Positions 3,723-61,880 of a stretch of DNA of 64,000 nt are shown here, in pieces. The DNA lies in contig JAWNGF010000007.1 of the NCBI GenBank assembly GCA_037039685.1, forward strand, positions 2,356,001 to 2,420,000, given 5' to 3'. The position numbers and the translations under genes were made by a program. Within the stretch, counting starts at the first letter, position 1, and each line of letters starts with the position of its first letter. This DNA comes from Ceratobasidium sp. AG-K (taxonomy: Eukaryota > Basidiomycota > Agaricomycetes > Cantharellales > Ceratobasidiaceae). Below the pieces are notes generated by a model, which was given only the letters and a program-made list of their open reading frames with translations, ran no database searches and was not told the origin of the DNA.

Positions 3723-6442
3723 TCACAAATACTCCGTTTGCATCTACAAGGCGTTGGTAAATGATCCACCACCGTGGGACAACTCTCGATACTCACCCAA
3801 GGTACATCTTCCCCCTCTACATAAGCCCTAGCCGGACGCTTCCAGCAGGCCAAGTCATCCCCTTGGGCTTCACTTTCCAAAGGCATGAGAATACCCAACT
3901 CGTAATTGGTTATCTTGAGATTACTTTCAGTTCGGAAACTCTCAATCGTCTGGCAGGCTTACATTCATGACTGGCGTGAACCCACTGCCTGAGAGGTTTC
4001 CCCACGCGGAGGGCGTGAAGTTATGACTGCTATGTCGCGAGTTAGGTTAACATAAATAAGCCTTCATTAGTGGGCAATGCTGCTCACCCGCTGTACAGCC
4101 AAGCTTCAGGTTTCGTCTCCACCGAATTTTTACCATCGTCTCCGGGTAATCCCAGAATCATCTTTGGTTTATAATTAGCTCACTTGACCCGATCCTGAGT
4201 TGATGCCCACCTTTGAGTGCATCAGTATCTTCCCTCTCTTAGAGTTACTATCGAAAAAGTGGGTCTTTGGAAATGTGGACGCATCCCACTGCTTGCGATT
4301 ACAAAACATAGTTCCACCCCCTGTCACGAAAGCTATCGAATTAGCAAGGTAACGTGGTGGCGGAAGAATATCAGCAACGTACTTCCCGACCCAGAACACT
4401 CGCGTCTACGGTACGCAGGCTTGGGAAAATAATTTTCAATCCAAGGGGATGAGGAACCTTGGATCGTCTGCTCTTTGGGGTGTCTAGCCATGTGTCAGGC
4501 GAGATTCCCTTGGCGGAAGATATGAATTCATTAGTCCATGCAGAAGAATAGGACCCGATGGATGACCCCTAAGTTATTAGCGGCGATTAGACTTGAGTAT
4601 GGCATAAGTGTGGCCGTCCTTACCTGGCATTCAATCGTAACTTGCTTGCTCGCTGCTCCGATATCTCGGATGGCTTTCATCAGTGCTACATGCCCAACTT
4701 GCAGGACTGAAGGCCAGCCAGTATGCTTTCCGGCTAAGCTTGGGATAAGACGGACGGTTACACGAGACCAATCCCAACGACTGTGCAGTTCATCTACATG
4801 GCGTGTAATATTCAGTACGCAGTGTAAAGATGTTAAATTATTACGGACCGATGGACCGAAGCGGGAGTCCAACCTCCCCGTTAGCCCGCTGGTCAACTAG
4901 GTGAGCTTCTAGCGCGGGGGCTACATTCAGTGCTTTTAACACCCGTTCGAGTGCCTCGGAAAAACTCTCCACTTTGGCGTCACTTGTTGAGGCCCCAGCC
5001 TGACTTGAGGCGGCTGGAGCAGTACGGAGCGGCACGTCTTGCAGCCACACAGACTAGAGCAAATAAGCCACGGAAAGCACATACGAGGTGGGGGTTCCCA
5101 AAAGGACCTACGTTTTCGATATCCCTCCAGTCATAGGGCACAAAGTTGGCGGTGGGAATTACAATACGCAATCTCCCGGTTTTATAGAACAGCTTTGGAC
5201 GCGCAATTAGTCACGTTACGACGGTAGAGTTCTTTGCGAGACCTACCATCATCAACTAGGAGCCAGCTATTTATCAGTAACACTACCATGAATCGCACGA
5301 CCCAGCGTACCTTGACGTGCATACATCCGCGTCCACCGGCTAGCGCTGGAGATGTGCGGACCCAACTTGGCAAAGTATAGTGAACCTCGGCTCGGCCACT
5401 CGGTCCCGGCTGGGTAATAACAATTACAGGCACCCCCGGAGGTAATAGGGAATGCAGCCAAGGCAAGTCAAGGGAAAACGAGGAAACGATAGCGAACGAT
5501 AGCGTGTTGTTGAGGCCACTAGCGGTTGATTTTGACGAGGATTCAGTTGGGTTGATCGGGGGAAGAATGTCTGTGGTGAGTCTGAAGACGGGCTTCGTGT
5601 CCTGAGATGGAATGGCATGTTTGTTTGCGGTCTGGCGGAGTGCGCCGTGCCAGAAACATCCGGATATGTCAGGGACGTTGAACGAGCCAGCATACACACC
5701 TCCTTTTGTCGTGGAATTACCCTTGGAGGACGATGTCGAAGATGATACGCTTATAGCTGGAGAGCTAGAGGTACCTGGAATTGAGCGCGTGCTTCATCGG
5801 ATTGGACATGATAAAGTAAACGCACGGTCGCTTTGATGGTCTTTGTTCCAGCTCATCAACATCATTATTGCCAGAATCGTTACTCTGCGAGGGCAAGTCC
5901 GGGCGCCGTCTCTTCAATCGAGCGAGACGCTCTTGTTCCATTTTCGCTCTTTCGGCTCGGAACGTCGCAGAGGGGGACAATTTCGAAACTGGTTCTCCTG
6001 GTTTCGAGGCTGATGCCGGGTCCAGGCTGGTCGTCTTCGAAGGTTGGCCCTTGACCGAAGAGGCGGGTAATGGTCGCGCACGGGCAACGGATTTTTCCTT
6101 GCCGACGATCAACGGGACCCCAGGTTTGCGTTGAACTTCATCGTCTGATTCATCTTCGGTAGCGGTATCCTCTTCGTCTTCCGTGGCAGTATCGACCTCA
6201 TTAACCTCCACCTTGGGCGCTGAAGGTATCGCCTTGTGCGGTGCTGCAGACGTGCTAGCAGTCGGAGGTATCCTCTTGGAGGAACTCGCGGTTGGCCTTT
6301 TTGGTGGGTACGGGCTGTCTGTAATAGAGATGACTTCATCGTCATCACTAGAATCGATTATCATAATTGGCTCCTCCTTGGAATTCGTGGCGCGGGCATT
6401 CTGGTCCTGGAGGGAAAGTGATATCGCTCTATTTTCATCCAT
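3723..6442 (-). CDS. TDP1: Tyrosyl-DNA phosphodiesterase 1
   Basis: Nuclear phospholipase-D-superfamily enzyme that removes stalled topoisomerase I peptides from DNA 3' ends. The first exon (6442 downward) has an acidic, low-complexity N-terminus with DSSDDDE. Catalytic motif 1 is MHVK at about 5311-5322 (split by an intron just after the lysine), followed by LRIVIPTANFVPYDWRDIEN with its asparagine. Motif 2 is MHSK at about 4211-4222, followed by SHNFTPSAWG. GGGTMFCNRKQWD and the C-terminal ELGILMPLES...DLACWKRPAR...EDVPW are also present. Exons between 5100 and 3723 join in frame across at least six introns. The last exon, reached through the intron after DVPW, ends MQTEYL and stop at 3723. 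Both HKN motifs are complete, so the enzyme should be active. A pair of inverted CACGTG motifs lies about 115-145 bp upstream of the start. Confidence 0.92.
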
Positions 6443-13991: not shown

Positions 13992-16900
13992 ATGTCTTAC
14001 ACGCGGTTAAAGTCGTTGTTCGGGCGACTGTCGCGGCGCAACTCTTCGGCATCGGAAACCTCACGTCCAACATCACCAACCCCGGATCTTCCAGCGTTCT
14101 CTTCCCCGGACGCGTCTCCAGAGAGTAGGTGGAGTCGTATCTGCAATTATGGGAATTAATCGTGTTTCGTAGCCGAAGCGATACGACTGGTAACGGAGCA
14201 GCGCCATTCGTCGGGTGTTGCCGTTACATCTCCTTTGGGCGACCACACCGATCCGCTGCCGCCTCCAAGACCATTTCCCGCCAAACGACGACCAACAAGT
14301 CTCGCATTACGCGCGTCAAGTGTGGGGCACTACGATATTGCGGTTACGAGCGAGAGCGTGGGCAGACAAGGCCCTGCACCACGTCGAGTGCGGTCCAAGG
14401 CCGATATTCTGATGGCTAGCAACGAACGAGAGGAGGAACGTGCCGCCCTGGCATGGAGAGGGAGAGGAAGAGATCGGAGCGACAAGGATGATGAAAATGA
14501 TGGACGAGAAACCTCCGAGTCGAGTCACGCCGGCACTGGCGGGGCACATACGCCCAGTCGTAGTTCGCGTGCATTTTCGTTCTTTGGACATATCGCACGA
14601 AAGGCCAAGCCAGCGCTGGCCAAAACTGATTCTATTCTTGCAAGGAGACCGAGCCGGAACAACCTCGAGACTGGTAAGTGCTTGATTTTACCACCCACCT
14701 GGTCTAATCTCGTCGCAGCCTCACCAGATTCCGAACACTATCGGCCCACCCCTCCTCTAGTATCCCCTGCCATGTCTTCTGCACTTGTTCCGTTCTCCAC
14801 TTTGGGCACAGTTCCTAACACGGTCGTCACCACTGCCCATGTCCATGGTTCCACGTCATTATCCCACCTTCTGCCCACCCCTCCACCCGTTGAACTACCG
14901 CTCAAGTTACAGCCCCTGGACGTATTGCTGATGGCGCTCACTATACCCTCGGATGACTCGCCTATCCAAGTCCATCCAACCATCCTCGCAGCTCAATTGG
15001 CCCAACACCTCCGGCACCCTTCGTCCCTCTCGAACCAGCCACGTGCAGTAGTCGGCGCAGGCCCAGCAGGACTGAGCTCAGCCGCACAGGTTGGCGCGAG
15101 TGTCCTCGCAGACGTTGTCCGGTGCCTTCGTAAACGCCAAGCGAGGGGTGGCTGGCAAGTCGTGGGTGCGTGGGGAGAGTCGACTGGGTCGGCCATCGAG
15201 CGGGCGTTGTTATGGTCCACACTCACGGAAGAGACTGAAGCGGTGTTCGATCCTGACGAGTGGACGGAACGCGATCGGACAGTCCGGATTCTGACCGACG
15301 GAGGACGGGATGTTCTCGGTCTCAAATCATTTGTCCGGGTTGTTGGAGGATGGGTTGACGCGGCAGTGAAGGCTATCCCGAACCCCGAAGCCCAAAAATG
15401 TATCGACTCGACACTCCGGCTCCTCGAAGATGTGCTACGATGCAATGCCCCGAGATTCGACGAATCCGAGGTTGGGGCGGTGGTTGAGATATTCTGTCGA
15501 GCTGTGAGCGAGAGTATCGACCGAGATGCACATACCCCCACCGAAAACGGACACAGGCGATACCCCTCGTCTTTGGCTTCGCCTATATCTCCTGCTACGC
15601 CCGCCTCACCTATCCACACGATTGACGACACGTCCAGCCTCACCCCATATGCGGTCGCTGCCTCGCGGTTCGTTTCTTTGGCTCGATCTCTCCAAAAACA
15701 GACCCATATCCCGCCGATCGTACTACGCGATATGTTGGAGCATCTCGCCCTGGTGCTTGCTGTGGTCAAAACCCCGATGGAAGTCCTCGTACTTGGTGGG
15801 CGACAGAGGCGAAGAGGGAGTGACGCGCTCAGTCTAGGAGGTGCGAGGAGAGGAAGCGATGGCGTGCGGCGGGGAAGCGAGGGTCGTAAAGGCAGCATTG
15901 ATGTCAATGGCAAAAAGCCTGGTGGGGAGGTCGACTGGGTCGACGCCTATTCCCGGTTCGAGCTCGAGGGCGAGGTCTGCGGTGCGTTCAAGGTGTTACT
16001 GTCGGGACCGTATGCAGTTGCGGTCGGAAGGATGTTGTTGGGATTATTGGTTCCTGTTCCCGGTGCAGCTGGTATGTCCCTAATCTGGTACACTACCAAA
16101 CTCTAACGATAGTATAGATGAAGCCATGGGCCGCAACGCATTGATCTCCCTCGGCGCAACTCGCGCCATCCGACTGTCTGTACGCGAAGCAGCAATCCCC
16201 CGCATGGCGCGTGCGCGTTTCCAGAAGGAAGCTGGGGGCTCGTGGACCATGGCAGGCGTGCCGAGCATGGGTGAGCACGGCTTGGGTTGGAGCGTTTCGT
16301 GACGGGTCTCATGTACGCCTACTGACGTGTTGATAGATGCGGCCGAGCTCGAGCTCATGGAGTTGATGTTTAACAAGGAACCCGACGGAGCGAGTGGCGC
16401 ATGGGAGACAGATCGGATTGTAGGTGTCCTGGGACCTGCGTTCGAGGCATGGGCGAGAAAAGTCGCGCTCGGTCCTCCAGTCGAGGCTGTGTTATGCGAG
16501 GCGCTTGGGATTGTGGATGACTTGCTTCAGGAGGCCGCGGAAAACGAAAAGGCGTTTGGGATCGAGGAGGGACGGGTTGTAGGCGAAGTCATCGCCGCTG
16601 CCGTCGAGCTATTCCCGTTGTATAGGTGCGTGGGTGACTAGTTGGGTTTATGTGTGCTGACGTGGTCCAAGTCGGGCTGGGATGCTTGATGTGCTCGTTC
16701 CAGCATCCGATCCAGAGAGTTTACCGCCCGTGGTCCACACCCTTGTCGGGGTAATTCGGAAAATAGGACTGTCGACACCCATCAGTCCACCCATGACGAC
16801 GACGCTGCTGTCCAAGTCGGCATTCTTGACGGACCAAGCGGCGGTGACGATTATCAAACATTATGTGTCCATGTCCCTCCTCACGCCATCCACACCCGGA

Positions 16901-19900
16901 TACCTCAATAACTTGCGCCAGTTGTTCCAGCATTTCTACAAACCCGGTCGGAGCCTCGCGCGTATTGAACTTGCGCAAGCGGTGGCGAAGCTATACTTTG
17001 GCGTGCGAGATCTGGTCGACCATCGGCGTGGAATTGTGGATCTATGCCTCGAAGTATGGGAGGCAGACGATCGGAACCTGGTTCGCGAGCCTGAGCTGCA
17101 GGTCGTGCTTTCTGCGCTCAAAGTACTCGGAGACGCGATCGTAGCTGGGTCGACCGAGACGGACGGGAGAGGCAATACCGAAGAACGGCTACGGCTGCTT
17201 GTTGCGCTTATCGGAAGGGACGCGGACTGTCCAAACCTTCCACCAAAAGACGACCCTCCTCCAACCGAATCCACTTCACCAGACAGCCAAAGTCATTCTC
17301 GGACGCGTGACTCGTCGCCCACCCCAATGATGACGCTCCTCAACGCGTTGACGCCAAGCGTTCTGACTCCTCGCGAACTTCCTTCCGACCCGGTTGCTGC
17401 TCCCGTTCGTCCAGCTGTACCTCCTCCACCCGGATCGAGCGTAGACCATGTTAAAGGGTGCAAAGCCATGGCTGCAGTCGTAACACTCATCAAGACGTTC
17501 TTTGCCCTGGCGTTTTCTCCTCCCCATTCGCTCTCGTCGGCTGAACGAACCGCTCGTGCACCAGCTTCGTTCCAATGTATCCTCGTCATGCGCGACCTGC
17601 TGGCGCTTCTTTCACCGGTGCGAGGCGATTCGCTCGACCCCGCATCGGACGCGGCCGAAGAACGGTCTCATATCATCGACGGTAAATCGTGCTGTCCCTA
17701 TGCTCGCCTCGCAATTCTCCAGTGGCTGGTCCGACTTCGGGCCGACCGGGACCATCGGCTATACGTTGTCATGGATGTCGACCCTGTGATCGAACCATTT
17801 GCACACTTGATCAATCGCACCCCTCTCCGACCCCGCGCGACGGATCCACCTGCCCCTGAACCCCGCACCCGCGATCGGGAGAGGGACAAGCGTAATCGGG
17901 GGATGACGACGACCACGCCGAGTGCAACCGAGGGTGTGCGAATCGGGCGAAATCCTTCGAGGGGTCGAGCCAGCGATAGTCGGAGTCGGTCACGTCAACC
18001 TGGTCCGCCTGCGACTGCGCCAGCCAAGCCGCCGATTTGGGCTATTCCAGACGCTGTGCCATTTGATGTTGCGTTTGGCACTCGCCCGAGCGAGGGCATG
18101 ACTACCTATGAGCAACGCATAGAGCCGACCCACGATGGACTTATTCCTCAGCTGTGGTTGCCCGTATCGGCATATGTGTGTATCATGATCGACCTAATCA
18201 CTGCCGAAACCGACTGGGAGATTCTGTCATACGCTCTGAGCCATCTTCCGGTCCAGATGTCCAACAAGCACTTGTTCTGTGGCCCAAGAACGCGATGCGC
18301 AATCATCCGACTGTTGTCCGAGTTCTGCAAGATTGTATACGAAGACAAGCTTACCACGAATGTCGGACCTCTCCCAGTGGGCCTCAAGGCGACGGATGTG
18401 CAGGGGTTAGCGTATCATACGCTTACTACGCTCATGAGCTATCACCGAACGTTTGACAAGTGGCTACAAGATGCGCTTTTGCAGACTTTCCTTCGCGGAC
18501 TAAACAAGAACACGACGACGGTCAAGCCATGTCTTCAGGCCCTGGCGATCGCGGCGTTCGAGCTTCAGCCCTCGACAACCAAGTTCCTTGGCGAGATTGT
18601 GGACAAGTTATCGCAAATCATGTCCAACCCGACCATCGCTGGCTATATCCTGGAGCTACTCTGCATCATCGGATCGATCCCTTCACTCTACGCCAACTTT
18701 ACAGACGACAACTACCGCCGCATTTTCCACGTTCCCTTGCAGTACATCACACTTCACAACCGCCCTGACTCGCATGCCGGTCCAGCAAACAAGGAGTCTT
18801 ACGCCCTCACGCAGCACGTGCTCATCCTTGCATACTACCAGATCTATATCTGGTTCCTCGCCCTCAAGCTACAGGATCGGCCAAAGCATATTCCCTATAT
18901 TACACGGCACCTCTTACTTGCCAACGAGCACTACTCTCAAGTCGATGAGCCCACCGAAGTCTGTTTCGACTGGCTCGCGCGTTTCACGTATGCCAACGCC
19001 GAATCCAAGCCACGCATGTCCACGCTTCGCGAAAACGTGCTCAATCCGGCTGGTAGTACTGGCGAAGGCGTCGTGACGAGCAAATCGTGGGTGTTTGGCA
19101 ACTCGATCATCACGATCAAGACCCTGCGCCATTCAGGGTGGCTGGAGATCGAATGTCGTCGACCGTCCGGACTCTCGACCTTTTTGTGCAAGCTGGAGAA
19201 CATCGCAGGCCTGGGACTGGGAGAGCAGGTGACGGGTGAGATTTTGGAAGCGGTGGAAGCTCAGAAGAGTGGGAGTGAATCAGAACCTGCTAGCGGCGAG
19301 GTGAGTAGGCTTGGTTGATTTAGTGGCGAATTGCTTGATTTGGACTTGTTTACAGCCAATGCCAAATGAAGCACCGGCAAACGATACATCCACCCCATCA
19401 CCCATTCCAAGCGGACTACTCAGCCCTTCTGGCGTCGCTGCACCAAAAGAGTTGGAACTCGACCCCAGCTACTTTGCGCTCCAGCTCTCGCCGTATCCCG
19501 ATATCCGCCGTGCGTCTCTGCGCGGTCGGCTCGTTCCCAATGATGACTTGCTTGGTCGGACGTTGCGAGGTATCGACCGCGTGCCCGTCATGGACTTCCA
19601 TGCTGTCGGTATCCTATACGTCGGACCCGGCCAAACAGACGAGCGCGAGATCCTCGGCAACCGTGCCGGGTCACCAGCATACACCCAGTTCCTCGACAAC
19701 CTCGGACGCCTCATCCGACTCAAGAACCAAAAAGATCTGTACACCGGCGGACTCGACTCGCACTATGACACAGATGGACAATACACCTACGCGTGGTGGG
19801 ATGCGATCGTCCAGATGCTGTACCACATTGCGACACTCATGCCAAACCGTGAGGGTGACGACCAGTTTGCGGCCAAAAAGCTGCACATCGGTAACGACTA

Positions 19901-21709: not shown

Positions 21710-23211
21710 ATGGAGATTGAAATAATTGTGCGTTGGAGTCTGATATGTCTGTGGTGTTTGCTGAGATGCGATTTCGCAGTGGGTGCGCTAGACGTCGTAT
21801 AGCCATGATGAGGGTTGATGAATCATTTCCTGCACGCCTGTCAGGTTGAAGGCAAAAATTCTGTGAGTGCATCCCTTCGTTGCTGCTCCTTTCCCGTGAT
21901 TCCTGTGGCTCAATGATCCGCTGTTACCCTAGTCTGTGGGTGCACCGCGTCGGCTTTAATCACCGAGCACAACGCTGACCTTGCGAACGCCGACACGGAA
22001 ATGTGAACATGACTGGCAACCGACTGCTATTTTATTTGTGACTACAAGGTGTGTCGGTTCCGTCCCCCAACCAAGCATGCTGCTGACCATCTTTGGGACT
22101 GTCGATGAACCATTGGGCTTGCCTCGAATGGTCACACGCATTCAGGGGGTACGTGTCCTTCGTGCCGAACGAGGCATTACTCTGACGGGGAAATGACATC
22201 GATTGGTCTGGCCTCTGATGCGTGACCTTGACTATGACAGAGGGTGCGTACCTCGACCGCTGAGCGGACTAGAACTAACTAGGATTACACTCGTCGTGGC
22301 CAACGACTGAACTTGTTTCTTGCACACTGTACCGTTACCAGAATGTAAGTGATGTCTTACGGGACACAGGGCTGCTGATCAGTGGCATGGATTTCTCGTG
22401 CGCGTACTCGCTGCCCTCCCGCGGCGTTCGATAACATCAGACTGTATGTAGGAGTTACCTAGTAGAGCGGAGATCGTGCTAATCAGCGTAATAATGATGG
22501 GACTCGATCCTTATCGCACCGAACCTCACTTGCCTCCACGCAATCAAGTGGGTTAGTGCGCGTGATGGATATGGAGCTGCCGGAAGTAATTCACTTATGT
22601 GGTTCCATTGCCATTGTTCTAGACTGTGAGTTTCGTTGCATTACCATGACGTTGCTATTAGCTGACTAGACAATCAAATGACCACAGTGGGTGGGTTCAT
22701 TCACCAGAAGGCAAGGATGAGGCGTGCTAACAAGCAGGCAACGTGCGACTTCTTAGACGATAGATGAAGAAAGGGTGAGTCACTGCGCTTTGTTGGCGAA
22801 TGGCAGGACGCCGACAGTCCATACTTGCGGTATCGAAACATGGCGATAACAGAACGTGAGTGCCACTTCAGAAACCTAAAAGCGTACACTAAAGAGGCCC
22901 ACGGGTCGTATTTGATTGATGGGCATCGACACTCCAGTATGTAAGTAGACAACAGATGTAGATGCGCGAAGCTCGACTAACAGGAGATATAAATTGGACG
23001 AAGGAGGCGAGTAAAATGCGGCTGCCTGGTGGGACTGAGATAGGAGTTGAGCTCATGGGTGAAATAATAGATTGTGGGTAGGACAGAGAAGAACCACGCG
23101 CCATGAGACTGAGATGTTTTCTATTGCTGGCAGACAGTACGTTGGCTAGTAGTAGCCGTGATGTGAATACGTGGTAACAAACAATAAAACTCGACTCTTG
23201 GCTTGTAGAAA
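21710..23211 (+). other. Upstream micro-exon series (non-repetitive)
   Basis: Between the proposed start exon and the 112-bp array I read these AG-exon-GT units: 21780-21782 TGG, 21845-21862 (18 nt), 21933-21935 TCT, 22146-22148 GGG, 22241-22243 AGG, 22342-22344 AAT, 22441-22443 ACT, 22549-22551 TGG, 22623-22625 ACT, 22688-22690 TGG, 22757-22774 (18 nt, TIDEER), 22853-22855 AAC, 22938-22940 TAT, 23004-23006 GAG, 23071-23073 ATT, 23134-23136 ACA, 23209-23211 AAA. Donors are mostly GTRNGT; those after GAG and AAA read GCGAGT, a GC-type donor. Introns are 48-105 nt, except one of 210 nt with an internal AG/GT at 22047-22050. Lengths are all multiples of three and no codon is a stop. Confidence 0.7.
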
Positions 23212-26200
23212 GCGAGTGTGGATCTACGATCGCACGAGGTCGATGGTGCTGACTAATGCGGCGCATTTCTGCACCTGATGCTCGTCGTCGCTGCCGTCTG
23301 ACGCTTCACTATGACTGTAGGATGTACGTATGAATCAGTGATCGCACGAGGACGATGGTGCTGACTAATTCGGCGCATTTCTGCACCTGATGCTCGTCGT
23401 CGCTGCCGTCTGACGCTTCACTATGACTTTAGCGAGTACGTATGAATCAGTGATCGCACGAGGACGATGGTGCTGACTAATTCGGCGCATTTCTGCACCT
23501 GATGCTCGTCGTCGCTGCCGTCTGACGCTTCACTATGACTTTAGCTTGTACGTATGAATCAGTGATCGCACGAGGACGATGGTGCTGACTAATTCGGCGC
23601 ATTTCTGCACCTGATGCTCGTCGTCGCTGCCATCTGACGCTTCACTACGAGATTAGTATGTAAGTATGAATCAGTGATCGCACGAGGACGATGGTGCTGA
23701 CTAAGTCGGCGCATTTCTGCACCTGATGCTCGTCGTCGCTGCCGTCTGACGCTTCACTATGACTTTAGGGAGTGCGTATGAACCAGTGATCGCACGAGGA
23801 CGATGGTGCTGACTAATTCGGCGCATTTCTGCACCTGATGCTCGTCGTCGCTGCCGTCTGACGCTTCACTATGACTTTAGCTTGTACGTATGAATCAGTG
23901 ATCGCACGAGGACGATGGTGCTGACTAATTCGGCGCATTTCTGCACCTGATGCTCGTCGTCGCTGCCGTCTGACGCTTCACTATGACTTTAGCGAGTACG
24001 TATGAATCAGTGATCGCACGAGGACGATGGTGCTGACTAATTCGGCGCATTTCTGCACCTGATGCTCGTCGTCGCTGCCGTCTGACGCTTCACTATGACT
24101 TTAGGGAGTGCGTATGAATCAGTGATCGCACGAGGACGATGGTGCTGACTAATTCGGCGCATTTCTGCACCTGATGCTCGTCGTCGCTGCCGTCTGACGC
24201 TTCACTATGACTTTAGAGCGTACGTATGAACCAGTGATCGCACGAGGACGATGGTGCTGACTAATTCGGCGCATTTCTGCACCTGATGCTCGTCGTCGCT
24301 GCCGTCTGACGCTTCACTATGACTTTAGCGAGTACGTATGAATCAGTGATCGCACGAGGACGATGGTGCTGACTAATTCGGCGCATTTCTGCACCTGATG
24401 CTCGTCGTCGCTGCCGTCTGACGCTTCACTATGACTTTATGTACGTATGAACCAGTGATCGCACGAGGACGATGGTGCTGACTAATTCGGCGCATTTCTG
24501 CACCTGATGCTCGTCGTCGCTGCCGTCTGACGCTTCACTATGACTGTAGGATGTACGTATGAATCAGTGATCGCACGAGGACGATGGTGCTGACTAATTC
24601 GGCGCATTTCTGCACCTGATGCTCGTCGTCGCTGCCGTCTGACGCTTCACTATGACTTTAGCTTGTACGTATGAATCAGTGATCGCACGAGGACGATGGT
24701 GCTGACTAATGCGGCGCATTTCTGCACCTGATGCTCGTCGTCGCTGCCATCTGACGCTTCACTACGAGATTAGTATGTACGTATGAATCAGTGATCGCAC
24801 GAGGACGATGGTGCTGACTAATGCGGCGCATTTCTGCACCTGATGCTCGTCGTCGCTGCCGTCTGACGCTTCACTATGACTTTAGGATGTACGTATGAAT
24901 CAGTGATCGCACGAGGACGATGGTGCTGACTAATGCGGCGCATTTCTGCACCTGATGCTCGTCGTCGCTGTCTGACGCTTCACTATGACTTTAGGGAGTG
25001 TACGTCTGATGCTCGTCGTCGCTGCCATCTGACGCTTCACTATGACTTTAGCTTGTACGTATGAATCAGTGATCGCACGAGGACGATGGTGCTGACTAAT
25101 GCGGCGCATTTCTGCACCTGATGCTCGTCGTCGCTGCCATCTGACGCTTCACTATGACTTTAGGGAGTACGTATGAATCAGTGATCGCACGAGGACGATG
25201 GTGCTGACTAATGCGGCGCATTTCTGCACCTGATGCTCGTCGTCGCTGCCGTCTGACGCTTCACTATGACTTTAGCTTGTACGTATATCGTATGAATCAG
25301 TGATCGCACGAGGACGATGGTGCTGACTAATGCGGCGCATTTCTGCACCTGATGCTCGTCGTCGCTGCCGTCTGACGCTTCACTATGACTTTAGGGAGTG
25401 CGTATGAATCAGTGATCGCACGAGGACGATGGTGCTGACTAATTCGGCGCATTTCTGCACCTGATGCTCGTCGTCGCTGCCGTCTGACGCTTCACTATGA
25501 CTTTAGAGCGTACGTATGAACCAGTGATCGCACGAGGACGATGGTGCTGACTAATTCGGCGCATTTCTGCACCTGATGCTCGTCGTCGCTGCCATCTGAC
25601 GCTTCACTATGACTTTAGCTTGTACGTATGAATCAGTGATCGCACGAGGACGATGGTGCTGACTAATTCGGCGCATTTCTGCACCTGATGCTCGTCGTCG
25701 CTGCCGTCTGACGCTTCACTATGACTTTAGCGAGTACGTATGAATCAGTGATCGCACGAGGACGATGGTGCTGACTAATGCGGCGCATTTCTGCACCTGA
25801 TGCTGATGCTCGTCGTCGCTGCCGTCTGACGCTTCACTATGACTTTAGCGAGTACGTATGAATCAGTGATCGCACGAGGACGATGGTGCTGACTAATTCG
25901 GCGCATTTCTGCACCTGATGCTCGTCGTCGCTGCCGTCTGACGCTTCACTATGACTTTAGCTTGTACGTATGAATCAGTGATCGCACGAGGACGATGGTG
26001 CTGACTAATGCGGCGCATTTCTGCACCTGATGCTCGTCGTCGCTGCCATCTGACGCTTCACTACGAGATTAGTATGTAAGTATGAATCAGTGATCGCACG
26101 AGGACGATGGTGCTGACTAATTCGGCGCATTTCTGCACCTGATGCTCGTCGTCGCTGCCGTCTGACGCTTCACTATGACTTTAGCGAGTACGTATGAATC

Positions 26201-29164
26201 AGTGATCGCACGAGGACGATGGTGCTGACTAATTCGGCGCATTTCTGCACCTGATGCTCGTCGTCGCTGCCGTCTGACGCTTCACTATGACTTTAGCTTG
26301 TACGTATGAATCAGTGATCGCACGAGGACGAAGGTGCTGACTTAAAAATTCTTTCATTCATCTATCCTTTGCTCAGACTGTACGTCAAGCCTGACTACGC
26401 CCTACCTGCTGCTCATTCTACCAATTTTGCTCCCTGATTAGCTTGTCAGTGTCACAAGGATTCGGTTTCCGCACAGCCACTGATTCTACGAGCCTATTCT
26501 TCTCTCCTCCCAGGATGTGAGTCCCTACCTCGTGGCGTTATTGGCCGTTATTTCTCTTGTGCTAACGATCGTGCTACCCACAGGAGGCTCGTTACATTCT
26601 TATTTATTATTTGAGTGAAGTCTTACTTCCTTGTAGGCTGTGAGTTCTCGGGCCATTTTTACTTCTCATGCAATCCCTCTAACATGTCCCATCTCTTACA
26701 GAAGGTGTGTATTGTATCCCTCTTACTTCTCCTAGGACTCAACTTCAACTTACAAATCTATAGAACGTAAGCAACCGTTCCTCGATACTCTTCAGTTTGC
26801 GTTCTGACCTGCATGCATCCAGGCTGTATGTCACGTTACTCTCCATTTTGATCTACTTGTCGATTGCTCCTTAATCGCATGTCACTTTCAGGCCGTAGGA
26901 ATCATTCATTAATTCTGACGACTGCTACACTGAAACAAATGTTGCTCTACGAACAGGTGGTACGTTCCCGTTGGTTGTGATAGCTCGTTTTGTAGTTGAC
27001 AACAACTCTCATACACCACTAGCAAGTTAGTACTGCTGCTATCGATCACTTCCTGGCCCTACTGATCCTGGATTTATCCTGGATTTATCCTGTCCCTCGT
27101 AGGATGTGAGTTGCCGGCCGCACTGAGCCTTTTATCGCTTACAATATCTCGTCCCCAAGTTTCTCCGAAGAAATCCCACCTTGACTCTGAACCAGGTTCG
27201 TTCACATTCCCCACTGATTAAACTATGGCCTCACGGTGGTCGGTACTCGCCATACCTCATCGCAACGATCCACAACAATCTTAATACTAATTTGGTATTA
27301 TTGGCTACTTGCGTACTTATACCATTATTCCTGTCATTGCCATAGGACAAGACCAGATTTATCCCTCTCACCAAGCCCGAGGTGTTGATCTCATCTCAAC
27401 AAAGTCAACATGTAAGCTTCATTTGCCCAATGGGTGACAATTTCTCAATCAATTGGCCCCCAGAAGCACAACCAAGTGGATCCGGAACAAAATAACCAAC
27501 ATGTAGAGGACTCCGGAGCCCAACCAGTTGTATCAGGCAATACACCTCTAACTCTACAGGCCGACTCGCCAGATCATCGTCGTGGCAAAAGCGGTGCCTT
27601 CACGCGCCGAAGCTTGGTGAGGTTTGAATGGAGCACTTTCCTCGACCATTTCATTTATCCCTTACCCTTCATATCTAGGGCGAGGACGCCAAGAGAGTCA
27701 CTTCACATAGCGAATTAGTTCTCGCCTCGGATGAATCAAACGTCAAGGATAAGCTCATCGTCAGCCGCGAGATGGAAAGTCTGGCAGCAGCACTGTTTGC
27801 AATCGTTATTCATAATCAAGCCGCCTGTAGTCTACTACCGAAGTGCTAGATCTCCTCGGCGACCATGGATGCAAAGACGTCACAGATCAACTGGATACAT
27901 CTAACTTCAGTAAGTATCCCATCTCATCAGGTGGGTATGGAGATGTGTACAGGGGCGCCTTTCGCGATGGGACCGGGGTGGCGGTCAAGTGCCTCAGGTT
28001 ACATCCGGACTCGAGCGAAACCACGAAGAAGCAGCTAAAGGTAAGACTCGCTTGTACTACGAAGTGTCCTGCCTAGTAATAGCCACAGCGTGCCGCTCGG
28101 GAACTGTACGTATGGTCCAAGTGCAGCCATCCGAACGTGCTAGGCTTGATCGGGGTGGCTCAGTACCGAGATCAGATCGCAATGGTATCGCCATGGATGG
28201 AGCGTGGCAGCTTGAGGCGTTTGCTTATGCGTCAAGAGGTAGTGGATCGGTATACACTGGTATGAGGCATGAATACTGGATGGGCCCAATACTCAGCTGG
28301 AGTGATCAGTGTGTGCAGATCACAGATGGTGTCGCATACATGCACGGCGAGAGCATGGTGCGAGCAGTTTCTAACCAATGCATATATGAACCCCCAACAG
28401 ATCGTTATTGACTTTTTAGGTGCATGGCGATCTCAAATGCGTCAGGATGTCTCCAAGCTCAACAATCGGGCGGTACCTGACGTATTCGTTCGCAGGACAA
28501 CATTCTTGTTTCATCTGATTTTACGCCCAAACTTACCGATTTTGGCAACGCGTCTCTCAAGGAATATACTCTGCAGTTTACGAACACTACAAGTAGTGCT
28601 GGTATCTCCCTCAATTGGGCGGTACGTATTGTGAGGCATGAAACACAACTAACTCTCACGCGATTTACGGCAGGCTCCCGAGATGCTCACCGCGCAAGTC
28701 ATGCAACGATGGAATCAGATGTGTACTCGCTTGGATGGTGAGTCGACGGTTCATCGAATGCCGCGCCTTACAACGCCTGAGTACACCTCGTGGTAGACAA
28801 TGTTGGTGGGTCTGACCAGGACCTCACGTTATAAATCAAATGCCCATCAACCGAACAGGAGGTCATTACCGGAGCGGTACCTTACGACGGAATGAGCCAA
28901 CAGATGATTATGTTCGCCAAAGTTATTAACAAGGCTCTCCCCGTGCGACCGGAGGCGCATATACCTTCGCAGAGCCCCAATGCCGATCTGCTCTGGTCTC
29001 TCTTCGAGGCCTGCTGGGCCTTCAATCCCCAGGATCGTCCAAGTGCTGCCGAAGTGAAGGAGAGGGTAAGTAGATCTGTATTGGGACGAATATCAATTTT
29101 ACTGGCAGCTGCATAGATGGGACAGGTGGTAGCGACACGAGGGTCGGGAAATCCGAGTGAATAG
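21710..29164 (+). CDS. Protein kinase gene with a 5' chain of single-codon exons
   Basis: Proposed start ATG 21710 (MEIEII then GTGCGT). About 55 mini-exons to 27105 are followed by ordinary exons 27346-27411, 27464-27616, 27679-27741 (or -27759), 27831-28040, 28089-28259, 28310-28357, 28420-28440, 28496-28621, 28674-28737, 28797-28805, 28859-29065 and 29117-29164. The kinase domain shows the glycine loop GGYGDVYRG, VAVKCLRL, RAARELYVWSKCSHPNV, catalytic VHGDLKC then DNILVS (HGDLK-N), DFG, APE, SDVYSLG and the C-lobe PYDGMSQQM...CWAFNPQDRPSAAEV. This is typical of tyrosine-kinase-like kinases in Agaricomycetes. All exons but one are multiples of three and phase 0. The exception, 28674-28737 (64 nt), shows APEM and ESDVYSLG in different frames, as if two bases were missing. 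The N-terminal part has no recognisable domain. Confidence 0.72.
23228..26340 (+). repeat. 112-bp tandem array, about 27 units, each an intron plus one codon
   Basis: Direct tandem repeat of a 112-bp unit starting GATCGCACGAGG; start sites run 23228, 23340, 23452, 23564 and so on to about 26313, where it breaks down. Copies are nearly identical except at three adjacent bases. Each unit holds a donor GTACGTATG (GTGCGT or GTAAGT in some), a CTGAC branch-like motif 20-25 nt before a TTTAG acceptor, then a three-base variable block before the next donor. Blocks in order: GAT CGA CTT TAT GGA CTT CGA GGA AGC CGA, (lost), GAT CTT TAT GAT GGA CTT GGA CTT GGA AGC CTT CGA CGA CTT TAT CGA CTT. One unit is 109 bp and lacks the AG; one is cut to a 54-nt intron. 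Intron-internal 6-bp insertions occur near 25285 and 25803. Confidence 0.93.
26377..27105 (+). other. Downstream micro-exon series (non-repetitive)
   Basis: After the array the one-codon exons continue with unrelated introns: 26377-26379 ACT, 26442-26444 CTT, 26514-26516 GAT, 26637-26639 GCT, 26702-26704 AAG, 26764-26766 AAC, 26823-26825 GCT, 26892-26894 GCC, 26957-26959 GTG, 27024-27026 CAA, 27103-27105 GAT. Each lies between YAG and GTRNGT-type donors (GTACGT, GTCAGT, GTGAGT, GTGTGT, GTAAGC, GTATGT, GTAGGA, GTTAGT). A possible extra GAG at 26584-26586 would need a poor GC donor and is left out. The introns are pyrimidine-rich near the acceptor. Confidence 0.72.

Positions 29165-57996: not shown

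Positions 57997-61880
<3,884 letters not shown>

Follow-up and report, generated by a model that had tools for sequence, protein, structure and literature searches.

A chain of single-codon exons at the probable 5' end of a protein-kinase gene in Ceratobasidium sp. AG-K

The locus and its exon chain

The DNA analysed here, a window of 64,000 nucleotides (nt) from the basidiomycete Ceratobasidium sp. AG-K (contig JAWNGF010000007.1, here C7, positions 2,356,001–2,420,000 of the 53.6-Mb, 17-contig assembly GCA_037039685.1), carries what is in all likelihood the 5' half of a protein-kinase gene, in which the N-terminal 71 residues are encoded by 53 one-codon and three six-codon exons in phase 0. 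The curated chain of 56 exons, 53 of 3 nt and three of 18 nt (21,710–21,727; 21,845–21,862; 22,757–22,774), starts at the ATG at 21,710 and gives 71 amino acids (aa); its introns measure 50–218 nt, most of them 50–116 nt and three longer. Two of the 28 units of a tandem array within it are omitted, one because its acceptor AG is lost (near 24,440) and one because its donor is weak (24,995–24,997). The chain is followed by a 36-nt exon (27,160–27,195), then by linker exons, and then by the kinase. A first-pass annotation of this DNA had counted about 55 three-nt and two 18-nt exons for about 70 residues; the residue count agrees and the number of 3-nt exons is close, and the 18-nt exons are three, not two. 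It had also remarked that none of the small exons is a stop codon, which is true of those listed here and is weak evidence, the array units being copies of one another.

The features below draw on related copies elsewhere in the genome, namely six close paralogs and a diverged pair on contig C12, and on a cDNA-like protein record, P0014.

21710..21727, plus strand: first coding exon, MEIEII, 18 nt, donor GTGCGT; the ATG and the exon are found in the six close paralogs
21780..23211, plus strand: 5' non-repeat chain of 15 three-nt exons (W S G R N T W T W N Y E I T K) and two 18-nt exons, VEGKNS (21845–21862) and TIDEER (22757–22774)
22047..22050: candidate zero-nucleotide (recursive) splice site, AAG/GTGTGT, within a 210-nt interval
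23004..23012, plus strand: exon GAG with GC donor GCGAGT; GAG, ACG or GTG in the paralogs
23209..23217, plus strand: exon AAA with GC donor GCGAGT; invariant across the six paralogs
23228..26342, plus strand: 112-bp tandem array of 28 units, with 26 accepted 3-nt exons between near-identical introns
26377..27105, plus strand: 3' non-repeat chain of 12 three-nt exons, T L D E A K N A A V Q D, aligned to C12
27160..27195, plus strand: 36-nt exon FLRRNPTLTLNQ, probable homologue of the 30-nt C12 exon KKNPDITFSK
27346..27411, plus strand: linker exon DKTRFIPLTKPEVLISSQQSQH
27464..27616, plus strand: linker exon KHNQ...RRSL, 51 codons
27679..27774, plus strand: linker exon GEDAK...REM, end uncertain: the donor is either GAAAGT directly behind the ATG, the choice favoured by P0014, or GTCTGG a few nt on
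27831..28040, plus strand: kinase exon with the glycine loop GGYGDVYRG and VAVKCLRL; its start hinges on the uncertain REM junction
28089..28259, plus strand: kinase exon RAARELYVWSKC...DRYTL, 171 nt; more kinase exons lie downstream

In the window, the array codons read, in order, D R L Y G L R G S R D L Y D L G L G S L R R L Y R L. Three donors of the chain gene are GC donors (23,007, GCGAGT; 23,212, GCGAGT; and 26,587, GCTCGT, the last following the exon 26584–26586 of the 3' non-repeat chain), and each is GC in all six close paralogs.

Spacing of the splice signals

The pattern YAG-NNN-GTRNGT occurs 54 times in the window on both strands, and 100 shuffles gave a mean of 6.3 and a largest count of 14. 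Forty-four of these matches lie between 21,930 and 27,111, every one on the plus strand. With the acceptor relaxed to AG-NNN-GTRNGT, the plus strand holds 44 in this region and 13 in the remaining 58.6 kb, and the minus strand holds seven across the whole window and none in the region. In the non-repeat parts, with the looser donor GTRNGH, 20 sites fall at 3-nt spacing and at most four at any other spacing from 0 to 30; an order-1 Markov null for the 3-nt spacing averaged 1.0 and never exceeded 6 in 2,000 runs. A strict CTRAY branch site stands near the acceptor in 13 of the 29 non-repeat introns, for which shuffles gave a mean of 5.2 and a maximum of 11. The shuffles and the Markov null thus confirm that the AG-NNN-GTRNGT junctions recur beyond random expectation, as had been claimed at first. 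An artefact of chance or composition might be imagined, as AG and GT are common and a tandem repeat multiplies a single site, but 20 non-repeat sites stand against 1.0 expected, and the diverged C12 copy, with no tandem repeat in the stretch checked, still yields 39 exons when searched blind, so that this explanation can be dismissed for all practical purposes. A plain minisatellite as a full account was likewise rejected, since C12 has the chain without a tandem repeat in that stretch.

Constraint among the close paralogs

Eight loci of the genome carry the chain. The six close paralogs, 84–99% identical, are the window copy (C7), c7b (C7:1.07 Mb), c5a and c5b (C5), and c3a and c3b (C3); DNA searches with the 5' and the 3' region matched six loci each, with the flanking chain present in 6/6. 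Over 30 non-repeat exons aligned among the six, not one splice column is variable (0/148), whether in the acceptor AG (0/58), in donor positions +1 and +2 (0/60) or in donor position +5 (0/30). Intron interiors vary at 440 of 1,858 columns (24%), the sequence upstream of the ATG at 46 of 200, and the 3-nt exons at 23 of 81, with no gap column; the codons for T-L-D-E-A-K are invariant (0/18 columns). The splice sites of the chain are under constraint, and many of its codons are free, or pushed, to change. The first exon is identical in all six save for one I/V change in both C3 copies. At the candidate zero-nucleotide site, the AG/GT is kept in the six copies, and C12 has a counterpart with the same rank in its chain, ATAG/GTGCGT (a zero-nt element at 5428 of C12), which makes 22047–22050 a candidate zero-nucleotide recursive splice site in a fungus.

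A diverged copy read by its splice signals

The 3' part of the window, used as a query, also matched the C12 pair (at 936 and 665 kb), and the 1.1 kb upstream of each of these loci holds twelve strict sites, the list being identical in both. One C12 locus was read further upstream, and its partner in 3.1 kb. The search used a chain finder whose weights for acceptors and donors were derived from the non-repeat exons of the window and which is blind to codons. In C12 it returned a chain of 39 three-nt exons with a score of 213.7, including a filler (TAC) whose own score is negative. In 16 control runs, covering both strands of eight stretches elsewhere in the window, the score never exceeded 11.3, with two exons; the two chain loci searched on their minus strands gave 1.0 and 4.7. 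On the window itself, the finder gave 29 exons from 24,550 on, since a 218-nt gap exceeds its 160-nt intron limit. A C12 run that allowed exons of 0, 3 and 18 nt gave 46 elements, including an 18-nt exon ATTGAGAAACAAGACAAT (IEKQDN) in the place of VEGKNS; some of the 46 were not accepted, e.g., the element at 5018 and the zero-nt calls at 6259 and 8936. The C12 copy starts with MEVT followed by the donor GTGAGT, and most exons of the 5' non-repeat chain are matched by counterparts in it.

The last twelve codons carry the comparison, TLDEAKSAAVEH in C12 and TLDEAKNAAVQD in the window. The window reads ACT CTT GAT GAG GCT AAG AAC GCT GCC GTG CAA GAT, and C12 reads ACA TTG GAC GAG GCC AAA AGC GCT GCC GTC GAA CAC (T L D E A K S A A V E H). 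Nine of the twelve residues are identical, six of these nine through different synonymous codons, and the differences fall at codon positions 1, 2 and 3 in the ratio 3/1/7. Eleven of the twelve C12 triplets were found blind; the second GCC, with donor GTAAAT, was added by eye. For the last 14 codons of the blind C12 chain, the observed alignment score was reached by 0/20,000 shuffles, and for the whole blind chain by 14/20,000. The intron interiors between these exons have no such memory, homologous ones being 61.8% identical and non-homologous ones 60.7% (9 of the 11 3' introns, window vs C12), and blastn between the two loci finds short matches near the array acceptors alone, the best at E 0.016. 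Because the residues of the 3' chain are kept via synonymous codons across saturated introns, the single-codon exons appear to be spliced together and translated, and on this comparison the 3-nt blocks are very probably translated, phase-0, single-codon exons. The early claim that a phase-0 chain of one-codon exons leads into a kinase is therefore supported, by paralog conservation, by the C12 copy found from splice signals, and by the synonymous codons.

Turnover of the tandem array

The 112-bp unit has at least 123 matches in the genome, all of them inside the six close-paralog loci. The whole array was read in the window, c7b, c3a and c3b, and its ends alone in both C5 copies. The 117 units obtained from the six arrays carry ten triplets: TAT (37), CGA (22), GGA (15), CTT (11), GTT (11), GAT (10), GAA (6), AGC (2), ACC (2) and CGG (1). 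Column diversity was scored over the 109 gap-free units, with four arrays (98 units) also scored singly, and the fixation index (Fst) was taken from three arrays, those of the window, c7b and c3a (81 units). The exon columns rank 1–3 of 112 in diversity in the window, c3a and c3b, and 1, 2 and 6 in c7b. Their within-array diversity is 0.67/0.66/0.53 and their between-array Fst is 0.05/0.01/0.01, whereas the intron columns -80, -50, -42, +16 and +26 have an Fst of 0.82–1.0. From this contrast between exon and intron Fst, homogenisation has crossed much of the introns without erasing codon diversity. The copies c3a and c3b, whose flanks are 99.05% and 99.9% identical, have arrays of 24 and 17 units with partly different codons; they are possibly two haplotypes.

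A neutral account of this diversity accepts the exons as real and mostly constitutive, and holds that old unit types have been reshuffled by unequal crossing over. The small set of ten triplets common to the arrays is what unit shuffling would give, and triplets are linked to upstream variants, TAT going with TACGAGATTAG in every listed TAT unit. Yet intron columns have come near fixation between arrays with codon diversity undiminished, and it is the exon columns that rank first to third in three of four arrays, and first, second and sixth in the fourth. We consider the neutral account improbable, although it has to be taken seriously.

Transcript-like protein records

Two protein records look like cDNA, because their reading frames are continuous where the genomic copies have many introns: P0014, a 411-aa continuous open reading frame (ORF) on a 1,539-nt contig, and P0007, one of 421 aa on a 1,707-nt contig. 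P0014 is 91% identical to c3b over 237 aa. It begins MTLSE/DKTRI..., in which the counterpart of the last five codons of the 36-nt exon is joined directly to the DKTR exon, as the gene model predicts. At the glycine-loop exon it reads STTEVLHLLGNHG. Further upstream, its REM-STTEVL fits a splice directly after REM. The genomic sequence there (27774–27830) has GAAAGT, i.e., GTAAGT with A at +2, in 5/5 readable copies of the close family, and GTAGTG in C12; a GA-AG intron after REM is possible, with a GT donor a few nt downstream as the alternative. P0007 starts M-N-H-FLDGHPEVTLSE/NKLKIIPR, consistent with the final three single-codon exons (V/M/L, Q/K/R/E, D/H); the match is weak, as the M is the ORF caller's start and the rest is short. 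The starts of the two records could reflect truncated contigs, the caller's choice of start, or transcripts that begin downstream of the chain, and they neither support nor exclude its inclusion.

These starts, at or near the 3' end of the chain, are among the points that would fit another splicing model, in which the chain consists of ratchet points for recursive splicing in one or more large introns, the 3-nt remnants being incidental and the principal mRNA coding for the kinase alone. AG-NNN-GT does look like a ratchet point, and the zero-nt AG/GT site is kept in six copies with a counterpart in C12. However, incidental triplets would not hold residue identity through synonymous codons across saturated introns, introns of 50–116 nt need no subdivision, and all six copies retain the ATG and, apart from the one I/V change, the first exon. 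The ratchet model is accordingly rated as very unlikely.

Condition of the copies and opposing evidence

Several observations weigh against the reading of the chain given here. The 3-nt exons as a whole are unconserved in the six paralogs, varying at about the intron rate, and 16 of the 29 non-repeat introns have no strict CTRAY branch site near the acceptor. The alignment of the C12 5' chain is weak when taken alone (its score is reached by 1,093/20,000 shuffles), and neither cDNA-like record spans the chain, P0014 beginning at its 3' end and P0007 three residues into it. In the arrays, the mean Fst over 26 other variable columns is just 0.30, and columns -9 to -4 upstream of the exon act partly like the exon (Fst 0.15–0.22); because these columns vary with the exon within arrays, some of the codon diversity consists of linked unit types. 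The kinase of the window copy has two 1-nt deletions relative to the other copies, and the c3a linker has one. The arrays of c5a and c5b are associated with large insertions, with transposon domains encoded where these were read, the array ends lying about 16 kb apart in c5b and tens of kb apart in c5a. In c7b, beyond the end of the alignable linker, the sequence continues into a different kinase stretch (74% DNA identity over 445 bp), which suggests that the chain is joined to another kinase there (C7:1072000–1081999). Several copies, the window copy included, may be dead or partly broken, or may contain assembly errors.

The array could be a decaying minisatellite in a dead gene, a once-real chain that no longer works in the window copy. 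The two window deletions, the array unit without an acceptor AG, and the transposon domains at the arrays of both C5 copies are what such decay would leave. On the other side, none of the 148 splice columns varies across six copies, the kinase exons are open in C12 and, as modelled, in c3b, and the window deletions sit in short homopolymers and may be assembly errors; moreover, the argument bears on the window copy and not on the family. Death of the window gene is thus judged unlikely, albeit not negligibly so, and the reading of the region as a chain of coding exons in a kinase gene is retained, with exon boundaries, coding nature and array turnover supported.

Of the sequences touched on here, the window deletions lie at 28690–28735 relative to c5b, both in short homopolymers, and mark either a pseudogene or an assembly error. 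The C5 stretches at the arrays, C5:2277000–2286999 and C5:2148000–2157999, encode reverse transcriptase/integrase, gag and Plavaka transposase.

The kinase and the spread of the chain

In the C12 gene model, the chain is followed by ten ordinary exons, all with lengths divisible by 3 and free of internal stops, and the kinase domain is full. The C12 protein matches PF07714 at E=2.9e-39 (135.4 bits, cut-off 23.1), and the only Pfam families found in it at E<=0.001 are the kinase families PF07714, PF00069 and PF03109, with no NACHT-ankyrin match. It contains GGFGDVYRG, HGDIKGDN, DFG and APE, which we take to be the kinase catalytic motifs. Its second ordinary exon probably contains a 51-nt in-frame intron after HEM, judging from P0007 and P0014. 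In the window, the ORF 27914–28411, whose frame crosses introns, gave no PF07714 match. Pfam scans of three N-terminal peptides of the family returned nothing at E<=10. Among named proteins, those closest to the C12 member come from Rhizoctonia solani and Ceratobasidium.

Three kinases near the C12 protein (on C6, on C1 and at C7:984 kb; 62–68% identity) have no chain in the 2 kb upstream (scores 4.7, 2.8 and -1.5), nor is the chain peptide found in those 2 kb. A contiguous N-terminus-coding sequence in near relatives was therefore rejected, the upstream stretches of the three having neither chain nor peptide. Among 30 other kinase loci, drawn from 145 PF07714 matches and run on 60 strands, the chain score did not exceed 8.5. 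Since these three near kinases and 30 kinase loci are without it, the chain looks like a module carried by two kinase subfamilies. The chain peptide occurred in 0/120 checked of the 194 homologues of the C12 protein, and among 922 candidate fragments of the protein collection, none matched the chain peptide at E<=10.

The genome gave 89 NACHT matches, and on C7 and C5 three of these lie no more than about 35 kb from a chain locus. Near-identical pairs are frequent among the kinase and NACHT matches, and the two members of a pair often share a contig (e.g., C3 at 2.6/5.6 Mb; C12 at 0.67/0.94 Mb), as if the assembly contained two haplotypes or large duplications.

Proposed mechanism and function

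For splicing order, isoforms and function we infer the following. Each short intron is probably recognised as an intron unit and removed singly, and each splice would add three nt to the growing 5' exon and expose the next donor, a stepwise removal that would resemble recursive splicing which leaves one codon behind. The resulting protein would comprise, in order, a conserved N-terminus (MEIEI...TWTWTIDEER), a variable array loop, the TLDEAKNAAVQDFLRRNP segment, the linker and a tyrosine-kinase-like domain. Because conserved residues flank the array on both sides, the predicted sequence suggests a small domain whose loop can be exchanged and has a high content of Tyr, Arg, Gly, Val, Leu and Asp. 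By analogy, its likely role is recognition or self/nonself sensing upstream of the kinase signal.

The array may act as a cassette store, in which unequal exchange and conversion homogenise introns and alter the number and order of units. With array codons staying diverse, the loop would change fast by germline recombination. Skipping of any chain exon keeps the frame, because all are in-frame units, and alternative splicing by exon skipping could add further loop diversity. Taken to its full extent, this would give every loop residue its own exon cassette, and germline array recombination combined with single-codon skipping would create many loop variants per gene and per cell, a combinatorial receptor diversification that feeds a basidiomycete kinase and serves self/nonself or partner recognition. 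This last proposal is tentative, and we regard it as possible rather than probable.

Relation to known systems

In schistosome micro-exon genes, small symmetric exons, which can be skipped without loss of frame, make up much of the coding sequence; each is larger than a single codon, and the encoded proteins are secreted. They share with the kinase chain the small, skippable, in-frame exons, and differ from it in exon length.

The first-pass annotation was aware of no earlier description of a chain of dozens of one-codon exons, yet there is a precedent. In Tuber melanosporum, NACHT-ANK (nank) genes have tens of codon-sized (3-bp) microexons (Iotti et al. 2012, per passages in PMC4986451, PMC3689799 and PMC10197012), and these are presented in the same passages as alternatively spliced, a means of diversifying the sensing domain. 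Like the nank genes as described there, the present ones have tens of 3-nt exons in series, 53 in the window and 39 in C12 (blind), recognised by sequence alone. Unlike them, where the host is an ascomycete truffle and the gene a NACHT-ANK receptor, the chain here is N-terminal, belongs to a basidiomycete kinase, and lies partly in a 112-bp concerted array; the two are likened by description and not as homologous chains. Repeats of fungal NLR proteins such as the HNWD family of Podospora have high internal conservation (a passage of PMC4986451). With these, the array shares near-identical units, concerted evolution, repeat-number polymorphism and variation at specific codons, but the repeat there is protein-coding (WD40, ANK, TPR), and the repeat here is an intron plus one codon.

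As regards splicing, recursive splicing with zero-nucleotide exons has been described in Drosophila (PMC8605326). The juxtaposed acceptor and donor are common to both, with one candidate zero-nt site in the chain gene; elsewhere in the curated chain every junction leaves 3 or 18 nt, and in contrast to the fly system as outlined there, the chain leaves one codon per step, with short introns and dozens of steps in succession. The single-nucleotide exon of Arabidopsis APC11 (PMC4674806) and plant microexons (PMC8831610) indicate, in the portions consulted, that exons of 1–3 nt can be spliced; those microexons are isolated or in adjacent pairs, unlike the chain. In literature on Rhizoctonia solani and microexons, the R. 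solani genome paper uses the term only as an aligner setting. Codon-sized exon chains are therefore already known, and what is new here is another phylum, a kinase, an N-terminal chain, and a concerted intron–codon array.

If the reading of the locus is true, codon-sized exon chains occur in two fungal phyla, and in kinases as well as in NLR receptors. The chain would be a natural test of the spliceosome on dozens of consecutive 3-nt exons, with regard to steric limits, intron definition and stepwise recursive splicing. It would also place two layers of diversification in one gene, recombination of the DNA array and possible exon skipping in RNA, both of which are measurable. Protein collections seem to miss chain-encoded parts, as the checked homologues of the C12 protein illustrate.

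Other observations in the window

Upstream of the chain gene, an ORF at 16661–19318 has a Tuberin (TSC2) domain (PF03542, E=1.7e-36). A run of 111 C at 59034–59144 is possibly an assembly artefact.

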